This document shows, in pieces, positions 421-25,811 of a stretch of DNA of 64,000 nucleotides. The translations under genes were made by a program, and so were the position numbers. Location: contig JACPSL010000038.1 in assembly GCA_016193285.1 (NCBI GenBank), forward strand, positions 62,001-126,000. Direction: 5' to 3'. The DNA is from Candidatus Melainabacteria bacterium. Lineage in GTDB: Bacteria > Cyanobacteriota > Vampirovibrionia > 2-02-FULL-35-15. The first letter of the stretch is position 1; each line of letters opens with the position of its first letter. The notes under the pieces were generated by a model, which saw only the letters and a list, made by a program, of their open reading frames with translations, did no database searches and was not told the origin of the DNA.

Positions 421-1467
421 ATGTTTAACAATCTTTTATTAAAAGCCTTAAACCATGAAATTGTTCCAAGACCACCAATTTGGTTAATGAGACAAGCAGG
501 AAGATATCTTCCTGAATACCAGAAAATTAGATCTGAAATTAGTTTTTTAGAGCTATGTAATAATCCTGAACTTGCAGCAGAAGTTAGTTTGCAGCCTTAT
601 AAAAGGTTTAATACAGATGCAGTAATTGTATTCTCGGACATTTTACTTCCAGCACAAAGAATGGGACTGGAGCTTGAGTTTACTGAAGAAGGGCCGAAAA
701 TAAATAATTTAATTTCTTCTGAAAAAGATATTAAAAAATTACAGATCCCACTTGCAAATGAAGAAAATTATCCTACTTTAACAGCAATAAATATCTTAAA
801 AAAAGAAATTGGTAAAAAAGTCCCAATAATTGGTTTTAGCGGAGCACCATGGACATTGTTTTGTTATATGACTGAAGGTTATAGCTCTAATAATTTTAAC
901 TGTACAAAACAATTTTTATATTCAAGTCCAAAGTTAGCACATGAGCTACTAAGCAAAATTACAAATACTTTGTTTTTATATTTAACTATGCAAGTAAACT
1001 CAGGTGCAAGTGTCTTACAAATATTTGATACTTGGGCTGGAGTACTATCTCTTGATGACTATAAAACTTTTGCCTTGCCATATTTAAAACACTTACTTAG
1101 TGATTTAATGCCTCTTAAAACACCAATTATTTTATATTCAAATAATTCAAATCACCTTTTACCAAAAATATCTATGTTAAAGGTTGCTGCATTAAGTTTA
1201 GACTGGAGAAGTAATTTACAGGAGATAAGAGATAGCTATGGTTCAAGCATTGGGATTCAAGGTAATTTAGATCCAGCAGCTTTACTTACAGATCAAACAA
1301 TAGTTCGTGAGAAAACTAAAAACATGATCCAATCAATTAAAAACTGGCAAACAGGTTACATTTGTAATCTTGGACATGGAGTTTTACCAGTAACACCAGT
1401 TGAAAATGTCCATGCAATGATTGATACTGTTTTTGAATTTGCAAATGAACCGGTGATGGCATTATGA
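421..1467 (+). CDS. hemE: Uroporphyrinogen decarboxylase
   Basis: Removes four carboxyl groups from uroporphyrinogen III to give coproporphyrinogen III in heme synthesis; a cytosolic enzyme. The 348-aa length is normal. The family signature PPIWLMRQAGRYLPEY lies near residues 18-33 and carries the substrate-binding Arg. A second conserved block, GFSGAPWTL, is near residue 139, and a GNLDP block lies towards the end. First gene of a tight operon hemE-hemN-hemH-hemG/Y, which carries uroporphyrinogen III through to protoheme in order. The upstream heme genes (hemA-hemD) are not in the window. Confidence 0.97.
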   Translation: MFNNLLLKALNHEIVPRPPIWLMRQAGRYLPEYQKIRSEISFLELCNNPELAAEVSLQPYKRFNTDAVIVFSDILLPAQRMGLELEFTEEGPKINNLISSEKDIKKLQIPLANEENYPTLTAINILKKEIGKKVPIIGFSGAPWTLFCYMTEGYSSNNFNCTKQFLYSSPKLAHELLSKITNTLFLYLTMQVNSGASVLQIFDTWAGVLSLDDYKTFALPYLKHLLSDLMPLKTPIILYSNNSNHLLPKISMLKVAALSLDWRSNLQEIRDSYGSSIGIQGNLDPAALLTDQTIVREKTKNMIQSIKNWQTGYICNLGHGVLPVTPVENVHAMIDTVFEFANEPVMAL

Positions 1468-1473
1468 ATAAGT

Positions 1474-2853
1474 ATGTTATTGAAACCACAAATAAAATTA
1501 GATACTGGCTTGTTAAAAAAATATTCTGTTAACATCCCTCGTTACACTAGCTATCCAACTGCACCAGAATGGACAAATAATTTTTCAAAAGAAGATTTGT
1601 TAAATGCAAATGAAATTGCAAATGAAAAACAGTCAGGAGTCTCACTTTATTTTCATTTGCCTTTTTGTGAAAGCAGGTGTCATTTTTGCGCATGTAATGT
1701 TGTTATAAGTAAGAAAAAATCAATTACGGAATCTTACCTGGAACACATAAAAAAAGAAATAAGAAATCTTAGTCAGTTAGTTCATAATAGTAGATTAGTT
1801 GAACAAATACATCTTGGCGGAGGAACACCTACTTACTTTAATCCTTTTGAATTAAATGCTCTTTTTACTACAGTAAGAGAAAGTTTTAACATCTCAAAAA
1901 ATTGTGAAATTAGTGTAGAAGCAGATCCAAGAGTAACTACTTATGAACACTTAGAATGTCTTTCAAAGCTAGGCTTTAATAGGCTTAGCATGGGCATCCA
2001 GGATTTTGATTTTAAGGTTCAAGAATCAATTAATAGAATACAGCCATTTGAATTAACAAGCAATATTTTTAACTGGTCAAGAAATTTAGGTTTTAATTCT
2101 ATAAATGTAGATCTTGTTTATGGGTTGCCATATCAAAGCAAAGAAGGTTTTGCAAAAACAATGGATTTAATTTTAAAACTTAATCCTGACAGGATAGCAC
2201 TCTTTCACTATGCACATTTGCCTGAGTTAATTCCCCATCAAGAAAAATATATATTAAATGAAACCTTGCCAAGCTCACAAGTAAAAATTGATATTTTTAA
2301 ATATGCAGTAGAAGCATTAACAGCAAATGAATTTATTTTTATTGGCTTAGATCATTTTGCTAAGCCAAATGATGAATTAGCAATAGCAAGAAAAAATAAA
2401 ACATTGCATAGGAATTTCCAAGGCTATACAACAAAAATAGGATGTGATCTTTATGGTTTTGGTATTACAGCAATAAGTAATATTCAAAATACTTATTCAC
2501 AGAATGTAAAAAAGTTAAATCCTTACTATACTGCCTTAGATAAGGGTAAGATTCCTCTTTTTAGAGGAGTTATATTAAACAAAGATGATCTTTTAAGAAA
2601 AGAGATTATTATGAAAATCTTATGTCATGGTGTAGTTGATAAGTCTGAAATAGAAAAGAAATATAATATTGATTTTGATAAGTATTTTTCTAATGAACTA
2701 GAAAAATTAAAAGAACTAGAAGATGATGAACTGCTCTCCAATATAGAAGTAACTGAGCAAGGCCAGTTCTTTTTACGTAATATTGCATCTGCTTTTGATT
2801 ATTATTTACAAAATAAAAATGGAAGACAAAAAATATATTCAAAATCAATTTAA
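1474..2853 (+). CDS. hemN: Oxygen-independent coproporphyrinogen III oxidase
   Basis: Radical-SAM enzyme that oxidatively decarboxylates two propionates of coproporphyrinogen III to vinyl groups without oxygen. The cluster motif CxxxCxxCxC is at C65, C69, C72 and C74. The fourth Cys is typical of true HemN rather than the related heme chaperone HemW. The GGGTPT motif follows. Length 459 aa is typical of HemN. The N-terminal YSVNIPRYTSYP segment is also HemN-specific. It begins 6 bases after hemE, and its 3' end overlaps the likely hemH start by 35 bases, which suggests translational coupling. Confidence 0.95.
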   Translation: MLLKPQIKLDTGLLKKYSVNIPRYTSYPTAPEWTNNFSKEDLLNANEIANEKQSGVSLYFHLPFCESRCHFCACNVVISKKKSITESYLEHIKKEIRNLSQLVHNSRLVEQIHLGGGTPTYFNPFELNALFTTVRESFNISKNCEISVEADPRVTTYEHLECLSKLGFNRLSMGIQDFDFKVQESINRIQPFELTSNIFNWSRNLGFNSINVDLVYGLPYQSKEGFAKTMDLILKLNPDRIALFHYAHLPELIPHQEKYILNETLPSSQVKIDIFKYAVEALTANEFIFIGLDHFAKPNDELAIARKNKTLHRNFQGYTTKIGCDLYGFGITAISNIQNTYSQNVKKLNPYYTALDKGKIPLFRGVILNKDDLLRKEIIMKILCHGVVDKSEIEKKYNIDFDKYFSNELEKLKELEDDELLSNIEVTEQGQFFLRNIASAFDYYLQNKNGRQKIYSKSI

Positions 2854-3847
2854 AAAAATTGCTGTATTGCTTGTCAATTTTGGTGGACCAGACAGCTTAT
2901 CTTCAATCAAGCCTTTTTTATATAGTTTATTTTCAGATCCAGTGGTTTTAAATTTTCCAGCTTTATACAGAAAATCCCTTGCCTGGCTAATTTCAAACTT
3001 AAGAAATCAAGCCTCAAGTAAGATGTATAAAAAAATTGGTCCAATGAGCCCTTTAATTCCAATTACATACTTGCAAGCTGAAAAGCTACAAGCGCTATTT
3101 AACATAAATAATTTGTTAGTTGATGTTTTTATTAGTTTTCGTTATTGTAAACCATTGATTGAAAATGTATTAGATGAAATTAAAGAAAAAGGATATAAAA
3201 AAGTTGTAGTTCTGCCACTTTATCCTCAATACTCATTTACAACAACTGGATCAGTAGAACTTATAGTAAAGAATTGGCTTGTAAAAGAAAGGGGGGAATT
3301 AGAATTGTTATTTATTAAAGAATGGTACAAAGACGAAGATTACATAGATTCGTATGTTTACTTAATTGAAAAATCTCTAAATAATTTAGATCTTAGGAGC
3401 ACAGAGATGATTTTTAGTGCACATAGTATACCGATGATTAACATAAAAAAAGGAGACCCTTACCAAAGGCAAATTATTGAAACAGCAGAAGAAATTATAA
3501 GGAAACTAAATTGGAAAAGAAGATACCATGTTACATACCAAAGCAAGGTTGGACCTATAAAGTGGCTTGAACCAGCAACTAATGTGGTTATAAAAGAAAT
3601 TGGCAGCAGAAACAAAAATGCAAATATATTAGTTGTACCTATTAGTTTTGTGTGTGAACATGTGGAAACTATTTTTGAAATTGGGAAGCTTTATAAAGAC
3701 ATTGCAATTAAGTCTGGGATTAAAAAGTTTTTACGAGTACCTTCATTAAACACTGACAAATATTTAATCCAAGCATTATATAATCAAGTAGTTAATTGTC
3801 TTGAAAAGAATAAGGTAGATATTAAAGAAGTACTCATTACAAAATGA
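2819..3847 (+). CDS. hemH: Ferrochelatase
   Basis: Inserts ferrous iron into the porphyrin ring. The open frame extends upstream to 2783, but the extension is hydrophobic and lies inside hemN. The ATG at 2819 puts the conserved first strand (AVLLVNFGGPDS) about 15 residues from the start, as usual for the family. The catalytic His lies in FSAHSIP, and a YQSKVGP segment follows. Length about 342 aa fits. The end overlaps the start of the next gene by 4 bases (ATGA). HemH is the classical protoporphyrin branch enzyme, so the operon follows the protoporphyrin route, not the coproporphyrin route. Confidence 0.95.
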   Translation: MEDKKYIQNQFKKIAVLLVNFGGPDSLSSIKPFLYSLFSDPVVLNFPALYRKSLAWLISNLRNQASSKMYKKIGPMSPLIPITYLQAEKLQALFNINNLLVDVFISFRYCKPLIENVLDEIKEKGYKKVVVLPLYPQYSFTTTGSVELIVKNWLVKERGELELLFIKEWYKDEDYIDSYVYLIEKSLNNLDLRSTEMIFSAHSIPMINIKKGDPYQRQIIETAEEIIRKLNWKRRYHVTYQSKVGPIKWLEPATNVVIKEIGSRNKNANILVVPISFVCEHVETIFEIGKLYKDIAIKSGIKKFLRVPSLNTDKYLIQALYNQVVNCLEKNKVDIKEVLITK

Positions 3848-5232
3848 AAGATGTAATTATTATTGGAGCTGGTATTGCTGGTCTAGGAGCAGGACATGAA
3901 CTTTATAAAAAAAATATTGATTTTCAAATATTAGAAATGTCAAATAGAATTGCTGGTAGTATTGAAACACTTAATATAAATGGTTGCCTTATTGAAAGTG
4001 GGCCACATACTTTTTCATCTTCAAGTAAAGAAGTTTTAGATCTAATTTTAGATTTAGGGCTTGAAGAAAGATTAATTCAAGCTGATCCTTCTTCAAAAAA
4101 TAGATACATTTATAAAAATGGAGAGTTACTGCGGGTGCCAACTGGCTTTTTAGAATTTTTTAAAACTAACATATTGTCTAGAGATGCAAAATTTACTTTA
4201 TTTGAAGAATTATTTATTAAGAAAGAAATACAAGAAGAGTCAGTTGAAGACTTTATCTCAAGAAGATTTGGAAGAGAAATCTTAAAAAATTTAATTCAGC
4301 CTTTTTTAAGTGGTGTATATGCGGGAGATGTTAAGAAACTTTCAGCTAATGCAATTTTTCCAAAGTTCAAAGAATTAGAAAATAAATATAACAGTATTAT
4401 TTTAGGTTTTATTTTGTCACGAGATTTTAAAAAATCTTTTAAGAGGTTAACACTTCATTCTTTTGATGAAGGAATGGAAGTATTGCCGAATACACTTTAC
4501 AAAGAATTACAAAGCAAGATCAGTTTAAATGTACAAAATATAGAGATTACAAGAGCAAAAGACTTTTTTATTGTTAACTTTAAAGCTAATAATAAAACTA
4601 TAAACTACACAACCAATTCAATTTTATTTGCAATTCCTAGTTATAAGATGAACGATTTTAGTTATCTTTTCCCGGATAATTTCGTTAAGGACTTTTTTAA
4701 TATTGAATATTATCCAATTGCAGTAGTAAACCAGTTAATAGACAAATCAAAAATTAATTTTGAGTTAAATGGTTTTGGTTTTTTATGTACCAGGGAGCCA
4801 CACAGAAAACTTTTAGGTACACTATACTCATCATCAATATTTCCAACTAGAGCTCCAAAGGGCAAAGCTTTATTAACTTCTTATATTGGAGGTGCATATC
4901 ATAGAAAAGTAGCAGAACAAACAAATGAAGAAATCTCTAACTTAGCTACAAAAGAAGTTTGCGAATCAATGCATATTGTAAATCCTGGCTCACTTGAAAC
5001 AATACATTTAAAAGTACACCCTAATGCAATACCTCAATATGAAATAGGTCACTTAGAAAAGATAAAACAAATTGAGAAATTAATGGATACTAATTACGGA
5101 ATCTTTTTTACTGGTAGTTATTTAAAAGGAATATCTATTAATGACACAATTAAAACATCAAAAGCAGTTGTTAATAAAATATATAAGTTTTTAAATGCTG
5201 AAATAAAGAAAGAAAAAATATTAGTTTCTTGA
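3844..5232 (+). CDS. hemG: Protoporphyrinogen oxidase, FAD-dependent (HemY/PPOX type)
   Basis: Oxidises protoporphyrinogen IX to protoporphyrin IX. The N-terminal dinucleotide fold GAGIAGLGAG is at residues 8-17, followed by an acidic residue about 20 residues later. The C-terminal FAD-contact segment reads GIFFTGSYLKGISINDT. At 462 aa it matches the flavin amine-oxidase-like HemY/PPOX class, not the small flavodoxin-like HemG of enterobacteria. The class normally uses oxygen, although its partner HemN is oxygen-independent. Last gene of the heme operon; overlaps hemH by 4 bases. The symbol hemG (also hemY) follows current usage for this class. Confidence 0.9.
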   Translation: MKDVIIIGAGIAGLGAGHELYKKNIDFQILEMSNRIAGSIETLNINGCLIESGPHTFSSSSKEVLDLILDLGLEERLIQADPSSKNRYIYKNGELLRVPTGFLEFFKTNILSRDAKFTLFEELFIKKEIQEESVEDFISRRFGREILKNLIQPFLSGVYAGDVKKLSANAIFPKFKELENKYNSIILGFILSRDFKKSFKRLTLHSFDEGMEVLPNTLYKELQSKISLNVQNIEITRAKDFFIVNFKANNKTINYTTNSILFAIPSYKMNDFSYLFPDNFVKDFFNIEYYPIAVVNQLIDKSKINFELNGFGFLCTREPHRKLLGTLYSSSIFPTRAPKGKALLTSYIGGAYHRKVAEQTNEEISNLATKEVCESMHIVNPGSLETIHLKVHPNAIPQYEIGHLEKIKQIEKLMDTNYGIFFTGSYLKGISINDTIKTSKAVVNKIYKFLNAEIKKEKILVS

Positions 5233-5269
5233 TAAAGAGCACAACTTATAGTATTATTTTTCTTGTATA

Positions 5270-5354
5270 TAAATCTTTTTGTTGGGAAAGCATGGTGGAA
5301 GTCCTACACTGACCCGCAACCGTTTAAATAGTCGGAATACCAAATAAAGATTTA
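5270..5354 (+). promoter_or_regulatory. Cobalamin riboswitch
   Basis: The conserved core can be read in order: TGGGAA at 5283-5288, GGTGgAAgTCC at 5294-5304, ACtGaCCCGCaACcGT at 5307-5322, and a B12-box-like AGTCGGAATACC at 5330-5341. A perfect closing stem pairs taaatcttt (5270-5278) with aaagattta (5346-5354). The arrangement matches the compact AdoCbl-riboswitch form. It sits after the heme operon stop and 42 bases before the likely TTG start at 5396. I see no obvious strong intrinsic terminator after it, so translational control by sequestering the GGAAGGG at 5380-5386 is plausible but inferred. Confidence 0.85.
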
Positions 5355-5395
5355 CATAAAAAACTCTTTTGCGAGGCTCGGAAGGGATTTTTAAT

Positions 5396-7114
5396 TTGCG
5401 AATATCGAATTTATTTTCATTTTATTTAACAGGTTCACTAAAACAATATTCTCAATCTGAACAGGCAGATACTCTACTGCTTTCTAATCAAGAGTTAGAT
5501 GACTGTGAGATGTCAAAGAAAGAGTTTGAAGAATCTGAAACAAAAGGATTTAAGTTTCAAAACTCAACATTAAATTTAAAAGCAAACTTAAATACTGTTT
5601 GTGGTCAATTTAGATTTGCTGGTATGGGTGTAATTAATTCATTGTTCTCAGGTGTTGGAGCATACTTTGCAAAGAAAATAAACCTTGGAGCTGGTTTTAG
5701 TCTTGCTGCTTTATCACTCTTAGCTTCTTTTATAAAAGATCATCCTCTTTTATCAACTAAGTTTTCAATATTTTCTTTAGGTGCAAATTCAATACGTGGC
5801 TCTTTACATTTTATTGATTCTATCTTCTCACGTATTGGTGAAGAAGGTGCTAAATACTCTCTCCCAAGTTTTCTTGGAGGCGGGCTAAGTATTTTTTGTT
5901 TAGGAAGAGCAATAACAAATAATGAAACCAAATCTTTATCATTACCCAATGACAACATTTCAGGTATTCTTGGCAGAGCTTCTATTCATCATCTGGATTC
6001 TATGCTTGCGAGCAAAACAACAGATTTTGCACTAAAAAATTCTGAAGCAAGTTCATTTTTTGCAGGGCTTACAACTTCACTTGGATTTTTAATACCTGAA
6101 AAGTTACGGAAACATAAAATGTCATGGAATAATCTTGATGGTTTTGTTGCACAAGGAAGCACAAATATTCTGGATTCTCTTTTTGCAAATATTGGAAACA
6201 CTTTTACATCTGTTTTTAATTCGACTGGAAAAGTACTCCTAGGCTCTGTTGCATTCATGACTTCAATGCCTTTTATTGGAAAATTGTTTGATCTTGCAGA
6301 TTATAAAATACCTTTTGGTACTCTTGAAGGCAGACTTGTAAAAAGCATTTTAAGTTTCCCTCAAACAGTGGCATTTAACTTAGGAAATCTTTTAGGCACA
6401 AGCAAGTTAGGCATACCTTTTGTAACAGGACTTCTTGGGCTTACAGGCTTTGCATCATTTACAAATATTGGAAAGAAAGTTTTAGGTAATAAGAAAATCG
6501 CTACAACCTTACTTGATGGAGAATTTAAAAGAATCCCCTTTATGCATCTTATTTACTCTGCAGTTTCTGCAAGTGCAATGAAATTAAGTGACAATATCCC
6601 TGCACCACTTCTTGTCTTATTTGGACCAATGCTTTCTTTTCAAATTGGTGAGAAATTTAAAAATGTTTCAGCAAGATTTGATGAGGTAAACGGACTAATG
6701 CTTAGATCTAGCATTCATTTGTGGGATTCTCTACTAGCAAGAGCTGCAAATAAAACAATAGGGAGAATTTTAAATAGTAGTGAAGATATCTCGACCTCAG
6801 GAAATATTTTATCTGATAGTAGTGGGACAAGATGGCTTACAGATGATGGAAGGATTGTTTCAGATATGGCAATAGCAAAACAACTACATACAGAAGCAAA
6901 CTCTAATGTGTTTAGCACAATATTTTCTTTAGTCTGCGGACTTGCATTACCACTTGGTTTCTTGTTAGGAAAGAACTTACTTAAAAAAGACAATAATAGT
7001 TTTATCTTTGATAAATCCTTGTTTACAAAGAGTCCTGTACAGGACACAAGTGACAGGGTGCAGACCACGAAACCCAAAAAACAAAATATGGAGGAAATAT
7101 ATCAATGCGTGTAA
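5396..7114 (+). CDS. Unknown hydrophobic protein with internal repeats, downstream of a cobalamin riboswitch
   Basis: I do not recognise this family. A TTG at 5396 lies behind GGAAGGG (5380-5386); an in-frame TTG at 5369 is possible but overlaps that ribosome-binding site. The roughly 570-residue product alternates hydrophobic stretches with a recurring element of the form S-x-H/N-x-h-D-S-h-h-A: SLHFIDSIFSRI, SIHHLDSMLASK, STNILDSLFANI and SIHLWDSLLARA, plus weaker copies GVINSLFSGV and RLVKSILSFP. Spacing is irregular, about 60-90 residues for most and longer before the last. There is no clear signal peptide; several hydrophobic segments could be membrane-associated. The C-terminus is polar. 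The stop overlaps the next gene by 10 bases. Its position suggests B12-dependent control, but it resembles no known cobalamin transporter. Confidence 0.7.
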   Translation: MRISNLFSFYLTGSLKQYSQSEQADTLLLSNQELDDCEMSKKEFEESETKGFKFQNSTLNLKANLNTVCGQFRFAGMGVINSLFSGVGAYFAKKINLGAGFSLAALSLLASFIKDHPLLSTKFSIFSLGANSIRGSLHFIDSIFSRIGEEGAKYSLPSFLGGGLSIFCLGRAITNNETKSLSLPNDNISGILGRASIHHLDSMLASKTTDFALKNSEASSFFAGLTTSLGFLIPEKLRKHKMSWNNLDGFVAQGSTNILDSLFANIGNTFTSVFNSTGKVLLGSVAFMTSMPFIGKLFDLADYKIPFGTLEGRLVKSILSFPQTVAFNLGNLLGTSKLGIPFVTGLLGLTGFASFTNIGKKVLGNKKIATTLLDGEFKRIPFMHLIYSAVSASAMKLSDNIPAPLLVLFGPMLSFQIGEKFKNVSARFDEVNGLMLRSSIHLWDSLLARAANKTIGRILNSSEDISTSGNILSDSSGTRWLTDDGRIVSDMAIAKQLHTEANSNVFSTIFSLVCGLALPLGFLLGKNLLKKDNNSFIFDKSLFTKSPVQDTSDRVQTTKPKKQNMEEIYQCV

Positions 7115-7755
7115 ATTTTAAATTAATTGATAATTCAAGACTAATTGCATCTAAAGCAATGTTTGAAGCAAGTTTAGAAAAAGCAAAGTTAAACCAAAAG
7201 TATTGGGATGAACTTTTAGAAAAGCTTCGTAAGAGTGGCGGTGGAGGTGGCGGGGATGATCCACATTTTGATCGTATAGCAGTAAGCATGATGCTATCTA
7301 ATTTCTTAAGCAATAAAAAAATTCAAGCAATGCTTAGGAATTTTACAAGTGAATTTTTAAACACAGATAAAAATGTTTTAAAACAATTACAAATAACAAA
7401 TCAAAATATCTTTGTAAATGTAATTCAAAAAGTTGGCAACGTAATTTTAAATGGAATAACAAACATGATTTCGTTAATTGTTTGTAGAGTCGCCCCATTG
7501 GGGCGACTCTACAACGATGTTGTAAACAAATTATCTTCTTTTGTCATGATTTTATCTTTTCAATTAAACAAATTAAAAGAATTACTTGAAGAAGAATTTA
7601 AAGAAGCAGTTAGAAAGTTAGATGTGACTGAAAAAATAAATAAGGTAAAAGATTTTTTTATGGACCTTTTAACATCTTGTTTACCTATTTTAAAAATATC
7701 TTCTTCCTTCAATCAACACCGGTACTCCACGAATCACACAATAAAAAGTCATTAA
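7105..7755 (+). CDS. Unknown 216-aa protein with glycine run and embedded palindrome
   Basis: Not recognised. The ATG at 7105 follows GGAGG (7091-7095) and overlaps the preceding gene by 10 bases, so the two are probably co-translated. The sequence shows a polar helical N-terminus (residues 1-46), six consecutive Gly at about 47-52, a long amphipathic helical middle and a charged coiled-coil-like stretch near 165-195. A 33-bp perfect palindrome (7482-7514) lies in frame at about residues 126-137. The last about 20 codons overlap tail-to-tail with the opposite-strand phosphatidyltransferase gene. A helper of the preceding repeat protein is possible, but that is speculation. Confidence 0.6.
   Translation: MRVNFKLIDNSRLIASKAMFEASLEKAKLNQKYWDELLEKLRKSGGGGGGDDPHFDRIAVSMMLSNFLSNKKIQAMLRNFTSEFLNTDKNVLKQLQITNQNIFVNVIQKVGNVILNGITNMISLIVCRVAPLGRLYNDVVNKLSSFVMILSFQLNKLKELLEEEFKEAVRKLDVTEKINKVKDFFMDLLTSCLPILKISSSFNQHRYSTNHTIKSH
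7482..7514. repeat. Palindromic repeat, GTAGAG type, inside a coding gene
   Basis: A 15-bp perfect stem (TTGTAGAGTCGCCCC and its complement) around the 3-base loop ATT. It occupies exactly 33 bases, so it adds 11 codons in frame to the 216-aa unknown protein. The outer TGTAGAG/CTCTACA edges are shared with other palindromes of the window. Confidence 0.9.
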
Positions 7756-8274
7756 GTAAATTAAGAACAATTCAAGATTTAAATATTGAGGTAGTGAAGA
7801 TTGAACTAAAAACATAAATGCAAAAGCAATTGCTTTTATTCCACCATAAGAAAATCTCATAAATCTTGAACTTGTTAAAAAATATCCTACCTTACTTTTC
7901 ATCATTGATTTTTTACCAAAAGCAGTTTTCCCTTCTTTTGTAGCAAGCCCTCTTATTCCATCTACAAGAATACCTCTAACTAAAAAAACAACTAAAATCC
8001 AAAAAGGAATCCATCTTAATGCTACAAAAAGTCCAATGTAAACAAGTTCTACAATTCTGTCACAAGCAATGTCAAAAAATGCACCAAAATCTGTTTCAGC
8101 TTTTAAAGCTCTTGCAATGATTCCATCAATGCCATCAAGAAGAATTATTAACCAACTAAACCAAAAGGCATAATTTAAAATAATTTTATTTTGAGAATTG
8201 TTTAAAACCCATATTGCAAGAACAATTGCAAGTGTTGTACGGATGATAGAAATTAAATTAGGTATTTGTTTCAT
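7690..8274 (-). CDS. CDP-alcohol phosphatidyltransferase family protein (PgsA-like)
   Basis: Integral membrane enzyme of the family that joins a CDP-linked lipid to an alcohol, for example glycerol-3-phosphate in phosphatidylglycerol synthesis. The CDP-alcohol signature DG-xx-AR-x8-G-xxx-D-xxx-D is present as DGIIARALKAETDFGAFFD followed by IACD, near residues 49-71. Length 194 aa and several hydrophobic helices fit PgsA or a close paralogue. The exact alcohol cannot be told from sequence. It starts 6 bases after the chorismate mutase gene on the same strand. Its 3' end overlaps the convergent 216-aa gene by 66 bases. Confidence 0.85.
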   Translation of the reverse strand: MKQIPNLISIIRTTLAIVLAIWVLNNSQNKIILNYAFWFSWLIILLDGIDGIIARALKAETDFGAFFDIACDRIVELVYIGLFVALRWIPFWILVVFLVRGILVDGIRGLATKEGKTAFGKKSMMKSKVGYFLTSSRFMRFSYGGIKAIAFAFMFLVQSSLPQYLNLELFLIYLMTFYCVIRGVPVLIEGRRYF

Positions 8275-10827: not shown

Positions 10828-13800
10828 ATGGTAATAATAGCAGCAGGCTCAACACAAAATAAAGGACACCAATCAACTAATCAAATATCTATTCAACTGA
10901 CAAAGGAAAAAGCCAAAGAGATTTTGGCGACTGACTACGGGCCTAATTTCCCAGAAAATGTCCATGATGTAGTTAGAAAACTATATAGCAGAAGAAATGA
11001 AAAAGGTGATGCCATTGAAACCATAAGCCAGACATGGAGACGGGTTGCCCTCTCTGTTGGTATGGCAAGATTAAAGTATGCTTTAAAATCTCATGAACTT
11101 ATTTCACTTACACTTGAACGTGCTCTTGAAAATGAAGCTGTTTTAACTAATTCTGCTAAGTATTATCAAGCAATGGGTGAAAGAAAAATGTTTGCAAATA
11201 CTCCTTGCAACATAAATGCAAACCCTGAAGTTTCGCTCAATGTTTTACAGTATGAAGCACATGGAGAAATTTTAAACTGGTCAACTCATAAAATTTGGAT
11301 GTCTGAAAATGAACTTAGACATAAGTATGAAAGACTTCCTAAATCTGAAAAAGAAAAAATTAAAAAATGGCTCTCTGACATAAAAAGTCCAGTTGCAAGT
11401 AATCCATATGGTCAGCAACAAAAACTTTTTTACCCTAACGTAGTTGAAACAAATAAGCATGAGCTAGCCATGGGTTATTATGCAAGCCGTATTAGAAGAA
11501 GAGGTGGGCTTGCAGCTTGTGGTGTTACAAATGCAGGTGACAGCTTAGAAGAAATCGAAAAAGCAGCAGCAGAAATTATGGATGCTACAAAAGGCTCAAT
11601 GGGCATGGGAATAAATACAAGCTCATTACGTCCATGGCAAACACCAAATAGTGATGGTAGCACAGCATCTGGTCCAGATCGTTTTGTAGAGAAACTTTTC
11701 TGTCCTGCTGGCCAATCAATTGCTCAAGGTGGTCGACGTGGAGGTGCATTTATTGAACTTCGTGATAGTGACCATCCTGACATAACCTTGTTTATTGATA
11801 AAAAGCAATTACCCAAAGAACCAAGCCTACCTAATGTTTATGAAAAGATTGAAGCAGCTACACCAAAAATTGATGCTAATGAATATTCTGATCCAAAAAA
11901 ATATGAAACTGCTTGTAAACAAAGAGAACTTAATATCATGCAAAAGACACTTGAGCAGTTTAGTAGAGAATCATTTGAATATTATTCAAAGCAGCAGTAC
12001 TTGAAAAACTATAATGTCTCTGTAAGAGCTGTGCGTGACTTTATGCAGCATGTTGAAAATAAAGAATGGTATCTGCCTTTTTTTGCAGATGAACCTTGGA
12101 AAGGTAACCTTTATGATTTTACAAAACCAATTTTAGACTCTACTGGGAATCAAAGGGTAAATCCCTTAAATAAAGAACCTCTTTTTGAACTTTATTCTAT
12201 AAACTTAAACGAGCTCCCAGAAGCAGAAAGTAATGCAATTAAACAAGGGTTACAGGTTCTGAAGTCTGATGATGGAAGACAAATCCAAGTAAAAAAAGAT
12301 AGAACATATTGTTTTTACGCGCCTGATATTTTTAAAAGAATCTGTATTGGAATGGTAAATGGTGGAGAACCTGGTATACAATTTTCTGATCATGTAGAGG
12401 CAGCAAATGCAAACAAGCACATTTATGAACTTCGCACTTGTAATCCATGTGGTGAACAAAATCTTCCTGCACAGATTGGTAAAGATGGTCTTGAATACAG
12501 AGGCATTTGTAATCTAACTACCTTACATGCTGCCCATGCAGATTTTTGGAGCGCAAGTAAGACTTATTTATGGGAAAAGCTTGAAGAGCTTGCAGAGATT
12601 GTAACTGAATTTATGGATGATGTTACAACAGTAAGCCACTTCCCAATTTCAGCACAAAACTCAACTGCAAGACGTGAAAGAAGGAGTGGCAGTGGTTTTG
12701 CTGGTGTTGCAGAATTTATTGCCAGGCATGAGCTTGAGTTTGGAACTAAAGAAGCCAATAGTCTTGTAACCAAACTATATGATCACTTAGCAAAAGCTTC
12801 TATTGGAGCCAGTCAAAAACTTGCAGAGGAAAGAGGGGTCTATGAGATTTGGCCTGGCAGTACCTATGCACAAAAAGGACTGAAAGTTAGAAATTGTTGC
12901 ATAATTAATCAGCAACCTACAGGTACAATGGCTCAGCTTTGTGGGACATCTTGGGGACCAGAACCATTTAATGGGATTGTTTTTTCAAGGAAAGTTAGAG
13001 ATACGTGGGTAAAGTTTACTGCGCCTGGTTTTGAAGAAGCAATGAAAAAGCATAATGCATGGCCAAAAACTGAAGAAGAAGTGCAAGAACTTTGTAACAA
13101 GATTAGTAAAAATGGGAAAAAAGCTACTGGTTTAAAAGAAGTTCCTGAAGATGTTCAAAGGATCTTTAAAATTAATACTGAAATTGATCCTATGAGCTAT
13201 ATTGTTCACTTAGCTAGTATTCAGAAAGGGGTAGGCGGATATCCAGAATGTTTTAATGCACTTTCAAATACCTGTATGATAAAAGGTGACTTACCATGGC
13301 AATATGCATGGGAAGCTACAATGACGGGTTATAAGCTTGGTGTAAAATCAATTACTTTTTATCCTGATGGAACAAGACTTAGTCAGCCTGTTGAACAGCA
13401 AGAAAAGAAAGCACAAGAAATTAGTAAGCTTAGTAAGTTCTTGCCTGTAGGTGAATTAAAAGTAGTTTCAGCAAGCACTACACCAGATGAAGAACTAGAG
13501 ACTCAGAAATTAAGATCAGATCAAAATAAGGTTAGAATCAGACCAAAAAGATTGTATGGATTTAATGAAGAAGTTTTAACTCCAGAGGGACCAGTACATG
13601 TTCATGTGTACTTTGATGAAAATGGTCCAAGACAGGTTTTTGCCCACCTTATGAGAGGTGGTGGGATTGCTTCTGGTATGATTGAAGCAATTTGTCGAAT
13701 GGCAACAAAAGCACTTAAGTGGGGTTGTCCACCAGAAGATGTTGCAAATGGACTTCTAAATATTCAAGGTGGACCAAAGATTATTGGTATTGAAGCAAGT

Positions 13801-14163
13801 TCAATCCCAGATGCTATTGGCAAAGTTTTAAAAGAGGCCTGTAAAGGTCAATATCAACTGTCACTTTTTAATGAGACTCAAAAGAACGGTACAAGCAATT
13901 GCAGTAGCAATGAAGAAATTCTAATAAAAGAAGAAAAAAAAGTTGCAATACAACAAACTTTTCAAAAAAAGCATGAAATAAAGTTTGATGAAAAAATGCT
14001 TTTGCTTGATGATGCAGTACGAGCTAGAATGGACTGGATAGCCCACGGTCATGAAACCCAATGTCCATGCTGTCATTCAGAGTTCACTCATGAGTCATTT
14101 GGGAACCCTGCATGTAAAAGTGGTCCAGTTTGCTTAAGTTGCGGCTGGAGTCATTGTGGGTAA
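10828..14163 (+). CDS. nrdJ: Adenosylcobalamin-dependent ribonucleoside-diphosphate reductase (class II)
   Basis: Reduces ribonucleotides to deoxyribonucleotides using adenosylcobalamin, without an oxygen requirement. At 1111 aa it is the long NrdJ type. Visible marks include the NPCGEQ active-site loop near residue 541, FMDDVTTVS, a QQPTGTMAQLCG block, and a C-terminal Cys-rich tail (CPCC, CLSC, CG) that probably binds zinc and re-reduces the active site. The start follows AAAGAGGT. The gene creates a cobalamin requirement in this organism, in keeping with the riboswitch at 5270. The last 30 bases overlap convergent mqnA. Confidence 0.95.
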   Translation: MVIIAAGSTQNKGHQSTNQISIQLTKEKAKEILATDYGPNFPENVHDVVRKLYSRRNEKGDAIETISQTWRRVALSVGMARLKYALKSHELISLTLERALENEAVLTNSAKYYQAMGERKMFANTPCNINANPEVSLNVLQYEAHGEILNWSTHKIWMSENELRHKYERLPKSEKEKIKKWLSDIKSPVASNPYGQQQKLFYPNVVETNKHELAMGYYASRIRRRGGLAACGVTNAGDSLEEIEKAAAEIMDATKGSMGMGINTSSLRPWQTPNSDGSTASGPDRFVEKLFCPAGQSIAQGGRRGGAFIELRDSDHPDITLFIDKKQLPKEPSLPNVYEKIEAATPKIDANEYSDPKKYETACKQRELNIMQKTLEQFSRESFEYYSKQQYLKNYNVSVRAVRDFMQHVENKEWYLPFFADEPWKGNLYDFTKPILDSTGNQRVNPLNKEPLFELYSINLNELPEAESNAIKQGLQVLKSDDGRQIQVKKDRTYCFYAPDIFKRICIGMVNGGEPGIQFSDHVEAANANKHIYELRTCNPCGEQNLPAQIGKDGLEYRGICNLTTLHAAHADFWSASKTYLWEKLEELAEIVTEFMDDVTTVSHFPISAQNSTARRERRSGSGFAGVAEFIARHELEFGTKEANSLVTKLYDHLAKASIGASQKLAEERGVYEIWPGSTYAQKGLKVRNCCIINQQPTGTMAQLCGTSWGPEPFNGIVFSRKVRDTWVKFTAPGFEEAMKKHNAWPKTEEEVQELCNKISKNGKKATGLKEVPEDVQRIFKINTEIDPMSYIVHLASIQKGVGGYPECFNALSNTCMIKGDLPWQYAWEATMTGYKLGVKSITFYPDGTRLSQPVEQQEKKAQEISKLSKFLPVGELKVVSASTTPDEELETQKLRSDQNKVRIRPKRLYGFNEEVLTPEGPVHVHVYFDENGPRQVFAHLMRGGGIASGMIEAICRMATKALKWGCPPEDVANGLLNIQGGPKIIGIEASSIPDAIGKVLKEACKGQYQLSLFNETQKNGTSNCSSNEEILIKEEKKVAIQQTFQKKHEIKFDEKMLLLDDAVRARMDWIAHGHETQCPCCHSEFTHESFGNPACKSGPVCLSCGWSHCG

Positions 14164-24070: not shown

Positions 24071-24708
24071 TGTTCTTTTACCTCATGAAAGTTTGAAAAA
24101 GGAATGTATGAAGTATCTTCTTGCTCCAGATATTTTATCAAATCACCTCTTGCAAAAACCAAGTCTACTACTTTAGATGCTTCAAGATCTGTCAAGCTAT
24201 CCCCGATTAATATTCTGAAGTATTTTTCTTTTGGAAAGTTTTCAATAAACTCTATCTTACAACATCCGCATTTCCCACAGGCGTTACAATTTTTAGGTAA
24301 ATATTTGTAGTCGATTTTAATTCTCTCAAAGTTAAAGTTTGCTTTATTACAAATTAATTTAGGACTATCAATAACACCATTAAGTATTGGTTCTATATGA
24401 AAATCAAGTCCTCCACTAATGACATAACACTGAATATTTTCAAATCTACAAAAATCTAAAAAATCTTTAAATCCTTTACGTAACCTTGCATTTTTTTTAA
24501 TGTATTCTATAATTTCATTTTTCTTTTTACTCTCGATTAGACCAAATAATTTTTCAACTCCATCTTTTAGTGTAATTGTCCTTTCGTATAGAATTTTATC
24601 TTTTATTTGAACCCATTCAGGTGGTGCAAACTTTTCCATAATCATCACTATTACATCTTTTTCAGTAATAGTGCCATCAAAATCTAAGAAGATAACTAGT
24701 TTTTTCAT
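24040..24708 (-). CDS. mtnX: MtnX-like HAD phosphatase of methionine salvage
   Basis: Haloacid-dehalogenase-type phosphatase expected to remove phosphate from 2-hydroxy-3-keto-5-methylthiopentenyl-1-phosphate. Motif I is FLDFDGTIT with D9 and D11. Motif II is YVISGGLDF, and motif IV is IGDSLTDLEAS. A Cys-rich NACGKCGCCK segment around residue 140 is also seen in MtnX proteins. Length 222 aa is normal. The start overlaps the mtnW stop by 4 bases. The mtnW-X-B order corresponds to consecutive steps, so the assignment rests on both sequence and context. Confidence 0.87.
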   Translation of the reverse strand: MKKLVIFLDFDGTITEKDVIVMIMEKFAPPEWVQIKDKILYERTITLKDGVEKLFGLIESKKKNEIIEYIKKNARLRKGFKDFLDFCRFENIQCYVISGGLDFHIEPILNGVIDSPKLICNKANFNFERIKIDYKYLPKNCNACGKCGCCKIEFIENFPKEKYFRILIGDSLTDLEASKVVDLVFARGDLIKYLEQEDTSYIPFSNFHEVKEQLQQKLLQKI

Positions 24709-25811
24709 CTTGATGTTATATATAAATTTTTAACTTCACTTACAAACTCTTTTGCACCAGCACTGCCACCATCTTTATGCTCCCAAACAGCAGTGCCAGC
24801 GTTAATAACTATATCTTCTCCAAAATCTTTAACAATATCTTTTATCATGTTTGCTTTAATTCCTGCTGATGGCACTGGCCATGCTGGTCTGATACTTTCC
24901 ATTGAACAAGTCAATGAATTCTGAATATCTTTTACAATGCTTTTTTCCCAGGCAAGTGAGCCATATGGGCTAGGAAATAAAACAAAATCTGCACCTGCAA
25001 TTCTTGGTAGTTTACCAAGTAAAAGTTGTTCGCTAAGTCCAGAATTAGTACTTAAGCACATAGAACCTGCAAATGCTGGATGAGCCATAATTGGAATTGA
25101 TACAACTTGTCTAAGTGAAAAAAGCAGTGGTAAACCATGTGAGACATAGTTAAGTAAGATACAATTTGCACCATTTTTTTCTAGCTGGACTCCGCGATCT
25201 AAAATTTCATTTGCTTGACCAGTTAAATTAATTGCATAAATTGTTTTAGCATTTGCTTTTTCTTTTGCTTTTAAGCAAGCTTCAAGTCTTTTTAAAGTTT
25301 GATTGAAATCTTTGCCGTATAAAATCTCGTCATCCTTAACAAGATCAAATCTAGCTTCAGCTTGTAGGAAAAACATATTTCCTAATTCTTCAGCTCCTAA
25401 ACCAAGACATGGCTTAAAAATACTCATAAGGAGTGGTTTATCTTTTTTATTTAAGATTTCTCTTATCCCTGAAATTCCAACTTTTGGGCCTTTAAACCCT
25501 TGTAAATATTTAGAGGTAAATTCTATATCTTCAAGTTTTATTTTCCCAGCAAGACTAATTTTTCCATATATTGCAGTTAATAAGGCTCCTAAGTCAGAAC
25601 CAAAATTTTCAATTGGGAATGCGATTTTAATTCTTGATGTATATGTTTGTTCTTCAATTGCTATAACTTCAGCTAAATGTTTAGAAACTTGTAGGTTTGT
25701 ACTTTTAGATATTCCAATTGTTTGTCCTGTGGCAATGCTTTGAGCTAGATTTTTAACATCACGGCCATCATTTTTTACTGTATATATAACGTTAATAGTA
25801 TCTTTTGTCAT
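24705..25811 (-). CDS. mtnW: RuBisCO-like protein, 2,3-diketo-5-methylthiopentyl-1-phosphate enolase
   Basis: Form IV RuBisCO homologue that enolises a methionine-salvage intermediate and does not fix CO2. Seen: FKPCLGL with K133 (the KPxxGL loop), FDLVKDDE with K159 as the likely carbamylated Lys and D161/E162 as metal ligands, IMAHPAFAGS near residue 240, and a C-terminal GGSAGAKEF loop. The loop-6 catalytic Lys region of true RuBisCO is not apparent. Length 368 aa is somewhat short for the family. First gene of the mtnWXB operon; divergent from a secreted EEP-family gene. Other salvage genes (mtnA, mtnD, mtnK) are not in the window. Confidence 0.9.
   Translation of the reverse strand: MTKDTINVIYTVKNDGRDVKNLAQSIATGQTIGISKSTNLQVSKHLAEVIAIEEQTYTSRIKIAFPIENFGSDLGALLTAIYGKISLAGKIKLEDIEFTSKYLQGFKGPKVGISGIREILNKKDKPLLMSIFKPCLGLGAEELGNMFFLQAEARFDLVKDDEILYGKDFNQTLKRLEACLKAKEKANAKTIYAINLTGQANEILDRGVQLEKNGANCILLNYVSHGLPLLFSLRQVVSIPIMAHPAFAGSMCLSTNSGLSEQLLLGKLPRIAGADFVLFPSPYGSLAWEKSIVKDIQNSLTCSMESIRPAWPVPSAGIKANMIKDIVKDFGEDIVINAGTAVWEHKDGGSAGAKEFVSEVKNLYITSR

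Follow-up and report, generated by a model that had tools for sequence, protein, structure and literature searches.

A conserved cobalamin riboswitch precedes a two-gene unit that is a candidate B12-acquisition system in Melainabacteria

Introduction

Many B12-dependent bacteria have, to our knowledge, no known B12 importer. In cells without BtuCDF, BtuM and ECF-CbrT act as alternative B12 importers; BtuM, whose initial prediction came from genome context (PMC6072759), is a small membrane protein of about 22 kDa, and the S-components of ECF systems depend on a partner such as EcfT/CbiQ. B12-independent isoenzymes form a standard target class of the cobalamin riboswitch (PMC3766115), and for the repressing metE riboswitch of P. 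megaterium an antiterminator/terminator arrangement has been shown by experiment (PMC10653944).

In a 64,000-nucleotide stretch of DNA from a Candidatus Melainabacteria bacterium (the window), which belongs to a group of non-photosynthetic relatives of cyanobacteria, an AdoCbl riboswitch precedes two overlapping genes, termed P1 and P2 (Table 1). Its RNA resembles the AdoCbl and AdoCbl-II riboswitches in aptamer, P13 hairpin, L5-L13 kissing loop and the use of RBS-occlusion or terminator/antiterminator platforms, but differs in a slightly sub-gathering score and in targets outside the known B12 families. The btuB-btuFCD operons of three relatives (G041, G045 and G057) follow the same riboswitch class with the same expected logic, being made when B12 is scarce, whereas the P1-bearing genomes are without a TonB-dependent receptor or FecCD permease by the markers described below. 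P1 is also distinct from BtuM and ECF-CbrT, as a seven-repeat protein of 572 aa in genomes from which CbiQ is absent. The riboswitch itself extends a known family by a new member and has expression platforms of familiar kinds, and no report of such riboswitches in Melainabacteria was found in the open-access literature. The genes that it precedes are a strong candidate for an undiscovered route of B12 acquisition.

Table 1. Features of the riboswitch, the P1-P2 unit and the comparison loci. Numbers without a prefix are window positions; L numbers denote loci in other genomes.
Feature	Position	Strand	Detail
AdoCbl (cobalamin) riboswitch, aptamer and kissing-loop hairpin	5259-5394	+	RF01482, 45.3 bits, E 2.7e-7
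Closing stem (RNA helix P1), 5' arm	5270-5278	+	pairs with 5346-5354; TAAATCTTT/AAAGATTTA
Closing stem (RNA helix P1), 3' arm	5346-5354	+	pairs with 5270-5278
L5 loop CCCGC, kissing-loop partner of L13	5313-5317	+	invariant, 11/11 leaders
P13 hairpin	5358-5391	+	L13 loop GCGAGGC at 5371-5377, invariant in 11 leaders
Shine-Dalgarno-like GGAAGGG in the P13 3' arm	5380-5386	+	9 nt before TTG 5396; by sequence reading
P1, 572 aa	5396-7114	+	TTG start; seven helix-hairpin repeats, conserved WLxxDGR..MAxxKQ segment, C-terminal hydrophobic helix
P2, 216 aa	7105-7755	+	helical, with a poly-Gly stretch; 5' end overlaps P1; next to P1 in all family relatives
Gut-type trio A-B-C, family f5	L084-L103, e.g. 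L084:655-3424		after AdoCbl riboswitch
B-like proteins, FecCD-less f9 and f3	L108:693-2045, L111:772-2250, L117:676-1971, L123:3646-5001		

Riboswitch detection and conservation

At Rfam gathering thresholds, a cmscan of the window returned one tRNA alone and missed the riboswitch. A permissive scan with two models of clan CL00101, RF01482 (AdoCbl) and RF01689 (AdoCbl-II), matched it over the full length of the former (1-149) at 45.3 bits, below the gathering score of 50 (E = 2.7e-7), and with the latter at 36.4 bits against a cut-off of 36.5. In its own 1.8-Mb genome this is the sole credible AdoCbl match (E = 2.9e-7, the next at E = 9.8), and genomes of the Melainabacteria family to which the window belongs have one AdoCbl riboswitch each. 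A permissive scan of the orthologous loci placed an AdoCbl or AdoCbl-II match directly 5' of the P1 orthologue in 11 of 11 relatives with upstream DNA, nine of them from the same family and two from family f4, with most copies at or above an Rfam gathering score. A twelfth relative with P1 (G008), in which a contig end cuts off the upstream DNA, was left out of this count; adding the window brings the count to 12 of 12. Within f4, P1 and the riboswitch occur together in two genomes (G013 and G046) and both were undetected in the other seven (Fisher p = 0.028).

The first-pass annotation had described a complete cobalamin-riboswitch core with a closing stem, and this description held. The model match is full-length, the TAAATCTTT/AAAGATTTA stem was found, and across 11 aligned leaders the counted helices, five including P13 and the L5-L13 kissing loop, were paired in 100% of cells. 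Both sides had changed in eight of 19 helix pairs, and none of 500 shuffles reached this result; in P13 four of the six counted pairs had changed on both sides with none broken. The longest closing helix of each leader spans 7-13 bp, with differing sequences. Loops L5 (CCCGC) and L13 (GCGAGGC) are invariant and so compatible with a kissing loop, yet for the same reason provide no covariation for it.

An RNA that resembles a riboswitch through decay or chance, and leaves P1 unaffected, would account for the score of the window copy, and the annotation had itself named a sub-threshold score as grounds for dismissing the RNA. On that point the window copy does fall short, but the orthologous copies above threshold, the covariation, the invariant kissing loop and the coupled presence and absence of RNA and P1 make a chance origin very improbable. 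The orthologues, which the annotation had also named as a check, carry the riboswitch in every genome where this could be checked, and because these copies settle the question the window copy is accepted as real despite its score. The riboswitch is genuine.

Expression platform and polarity

In the window, the ribosome-binding site GGAAGGG sits within the P13 kissing hairpin, in its 3' arm, so that a ligand-stabilised P13 would hide the Shine-Dalgarno sequence. Three relatives (G001, G007 and G005) have a hairpin and T run after P13, immediately ahead of the start codon; two of them, G001 and G007, also allow the 3' arm of P13 to pair with the 5' arm of this hairpin. For G001 the antiterminator fold (-29.3 kcal/mol) and the P13-plus-terminator fold (-29.2 kcal/mol) are equal in energy, and the arrangement is that of the P. 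megaterium metE switch (PMC10653944). Since the ribosome-binding site of the window lies within P13 and several relatives have a terminator/antiterminator, repression by B12 is the likely polarity, as judged from sequence and by analogy.

The start of P1 is affected by this anatomy. An ORF of 581 aa begins at TTG 5369, but the start is better placed at TTG 5396, giving 572 aa, because TTG 5369 lies inside the RNA hairpin and the orthologues align to 5396. TTG is apparently the P1 start codon in most genomes of the family, right after the hairpin or T run.

The P1-P2 unit and its proteins

Across 97 genomes, tblastn recovered P1 from all 10 remaining members of the family and from the two f4 genomes, and from no others; profile searching of the phylum, over 386 genomes, added no further P1. 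Within the family it is kept across genera, and P2 directly follows it throughout, whereas both f4 genomes lack P2 beside P1 and have different genes there. The two frames overlap by 10 bases (7105 versus 7114), and P2 is, as initially annotated, a 216-aa gene of no recognised family. The next gene, pgsA-like (7690-8274), lies on the opposite strand, making P1-P2 the regulated unit. Additional downstream genes in G003 (LemA/aminotransferase/TPM) and G005 (M16 peptidase) are unrelated to each other, which indicates that the conserved unit stops after P2.

Just 5' of the riboswitch, in most but not all family members, lies a heme cluster of hemE-hemN-hemH-protoporphyrinogen oxidase (window 421-5232). 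A joint role with these genes was considered and rejected, as G004 lacks the cluster upstream and G009 and G010 have an additional gene in between; the link of P1-P2 to the heme genes is positional at most.

P1 is built from seven homologous units of about 60 aa, with z-scores of unit against unit of up to 6.3 and the sixth unit the weakest, which bears out the DSxxA-type repeats first read in it; in most units the first helix is of the G-x-h-x-R...H-x-x-D-S type. The hydrophobic character ascribed to P1 proved moderate, with a GRAVY of 0.11. Its second helices peak at a hydropathy of about 1.0-1.6, few segments exceed 1.6, and just one helix, at the C-terminus, is clearly hydrophobic. In the two f4 orthologues no segment rises above 1.6, and the C-terminal hydrophobic helix is missing. 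An AlphaFold2 model from 12 sequences gave a confident predicted fold (pLDDT 82.6, pTM 0.82), in which each repeat is predicted to combine a long helix with a hydrophobic one, with short bridges linking the units, followed by a small conserved segment of strand (WLxxDGR) and the C-terminal hydrophobic helix. The hydropathy is ambiguous, and P1 may either sit in the membrane through marginal helices or form an anchored helical ring or solenoid.

Profile searches of Pfam, NCBIfam and PDB sequences found no family or sequence match for P1 and nothing significant for P2; the PDB profiles served also as the test for kinship with a BtuM/BacA-type importer, and by them neither protein is homologous to one of solved structure. 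Foldseek found no fold match for P1 in the PDB (TM at most about 0.24 among the matches listed) or in viral models. As these two comparisons gave only TM values below about 0.3 with an rmsd of around 20 Å, no fold was assigned, and the MFS/MATE names in the Foldseek lists were discounted as evidence. Viral contigs yielded no relatives. Both proteins thus belong to unfamiliar families by every search made, and the P1 fold is unmatched in the PDB; neither resembles BtuB, BtuF, CbiX or any other known B12 gene, in agreement with the first reading.

The AlphaFold2 model of P2 is poor (pLDDT 53.8), and no transmembrane helix is predicted in it. Assignments of P2 as Mab-21, Interferon or Pex19 were rejected, the matches being weak, scattered and absent from the P2 orthologues. 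Within the P2 frame lies a perfect 16-bp inverted repeat, TTGTAGAGTCGCCCCA-T-TGGGGCGACTCTACAA (window 7482-7514), G+C-rich in an A+T-rich gene and present as a single copy in the window; it is possibly a small mobile palindromic element.

Restriction to one lineage, construction from repeats and lack of a transporter fold would all suit an envelope or surface structure, for adhesion or for contact with cells, prey or vesicles, that is built when the cell is short of B12 and obtains B12 indirectly from partners. The Gly-rich, helical nature of both P2 and protein A of gut-type relatives (described below) fits such a structure too. However, the family searches gave no anchor or adhesion domain, and no secretion or surface genes were seen to be conserved as neighbours of P1-P2, so a surface role is improbable.

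B12 use and the role of P1-P2

B12-binding domains are encoded in all 12 P1-bearing genomes searched. The B12 users of the window genome are the B12-type ribonucleotide reductase NrdJ (window 10828-14163), MetH and a B12-binding radical SAM protein; NrdJ, annotated at first as AdoCbl-dependent, does have its best matches among B12-type RNRs, though under the NCBIfam model cut-offs. MetH is split between two adjacent ORFs in this genome (L126:1941-5311, C26), one of 853 aa with the catalytic and B12-binding part and one of 273 aa with the activation domain, and is encoded in one frame of about 1160-1180 aa in several relatives.

Markers of B12 synthesis and import were sought with a set comprising CbiC, FecCD/BtuC, TonB Plug, CbiQ and PduO. 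CbiC/CobH, the FecCD/BtuC permease and the TonB Plug domain were each found in none of the 12 P1-bearing genomes, with positive controls detected in every case (E. coli, Caulobacter and Bacteroides for the Plug domain). CbiQ/EcfT was found in none of 23 genomes, including the 12 with P1, again with positive controls, and a PduO-type adenosyltransferase in none of the 12. Together, these results point to P1-bearing cells that require B12 but are without its standard synthesis or import, by the markers tested. A role for P1-P2 in cobalt transport was discarded, CbiC, a marker of B12 synthesis, being absent.

P1-P2 are the only B12-controlled genes found in their own genome, and from this regulation and the genome content we infer a cobalamin-related role. 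Acquisition is the most plausible such role because the cell uses B12, the tested synthesis and import markers are absent, and there is a single B12 riboswitch. On balance, P1-P2 are probably a B12-repressed system for B12 acquisition, whether by import, capture or delivery. Against uptake, a polytopic transporter would be expected to have a higher GRAVY than that of P1 (about 0.1), and no transporter matched the P1 fold. The new cobalamin-related membrane system proposed in the first-pass annotation is partly upheld: the pair is conserved, riboswitch-led and found in a B12 user lacking the tested markers, while a membrane location is putative.

P1 is weakly hydrophobic and possibly soluble, as a helical toroid or solenoid, which would also suit a B12-responsive function other than uptake. 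This could be intracellular corrinoid handling (storage, chaperoning to NrdJ/MetH, adenosylation or lower-ligand remodelling), with the PduO-type adenosyltransferase not found in the family leaving a possible gap in AdoCbl formation, or a B12-sparing function induced at low B12, isoenzymes being standard targets of the riboswitch (PMC3766115) that are also seen in relatives. However, the isoenzyme targets known for the class are recognisable (RNRs and methylcitrate-cycle-like genes), whereas the searches tied P1-P2 to no enzyme family, known fold or cofactor motif, and on either version the genome would remain without a candidate importer. Handling or sparing is therefore rather unlikely, if to be taken more seriously than a surface structure.

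If P1-P2 serve in acquisition, plentiful AdoCbl or a related corrinoid, the presumed ligand, would bind the aptamer, and the L5-L13 kissing loop would lock the P13 hairpin, hiding the P1 ribosome-binding site within it; in several relatives, locking of P13 would favour the terminator instead. Expression would thereby be off with ample ligand, and P1 and P2 would be made when B12 is scarce. P1, putatively at the membrane, would then bind B12 and capture it or pass it on at the envelope, possibly transporting it, alone or with further parts, and P2 may interact with it as a helical partner.

Riboswitch targets in relatives

An AdoCbl-II match was obtained in 69 of the 97 genomes. At the loci examined, the riboswitch precedes class I RNR genes, nrdAB, in f7, several f2 and one f3 genome, and in f2 also methylcitrate-cycle-like and acyl-CoA genes and, by sequence reading, CobN-like or cobalt-transport-like genes. 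Genes for btuB with btuF/D/C follow it in genus g30 of f3 and in G057 (loci L090 in G057, L110 in G045 and L118 in G041). In the gut-type genomes of f5, a second riboswitch leads to class III nrdD-nrdG (L092, L094, L096, L100 and L102), with NRDD confirmed.

The main riboswitch of these gut-type genomes precedes an unfamiliar trio, proteins A, B and C of about 232, 497 and 165 aa respectively, none of which has a significant Pfam match. Protein A, found immediately 3' of the riboswitch in all 25 f5 genomes examined, is Gly-rich and helical, with CPHGLPLGACPICNG and a CPHGxPxGxCPIC motif; protein B ends in KNGPPFVYS. Proteins following the riboswitch in f9 and two f3 genomes are homologous to B (hhalign E 3.5e-5, BLASTP 2e-5) and contain a repeated internal G-K...E-V-x-V-K/R motif. 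These systems share with P1-P2 the riboswitch class, mostly BtuC-less hosts and the pairing of a large helical protein with a small Gly-rich helical one, but homology is undetectable between the B family and P1 and between A and P2. Proposals that P1 is homologous to gut-type B or the B-like proteins, and P2 to gut-type A, were unsupported by hhalign.

FecCD is present in nearly all f2, in f7, in genus g30 of f3 and in G057, the sole BtuC carrier among the 25 f5 genomes examined, and absent from f1, f4, the rest of f5, f6, f8, f9 and the other f3. Unfamiliar riboswitch targets thus fall in BtuC-less genomes and recognisable targets elsewhere, with the exception of G057, which has both. As G057 carries BtuBCDF together with the trio, the trio is not strictly a replacement for BtuBCDF; moreover, the anti-correlation with BtuC runs along family lines and so represents few independent events.

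A broader proposal is that P1-P2 form an importer independent of BtuB, BtuFCD and ECF on a previously unseen seven-repeat helical fold, and that gut-type and other BtuC-less Melainabacteria use an unrelated A-B-C/B-like system for this purpose; this is tentative, with the chances leaning against it. P1-P2 would be a categorically new system only if import by them were shown. If P1 is an importer or a B12 carrier, it would represent a new protein architecture for corrinoid handling. One conserved B12-controlled unit in a B12-using family narrows the search for an importer to two genes, and the gut-type trio provides a second candidate set, for gut Melainabacteria.

Elsewhere in the window (24705-25811), an ORF resembles, by sequence reading, a RuBisCO-like (form IV) protein and lies beside methionine-salvage-like genes.
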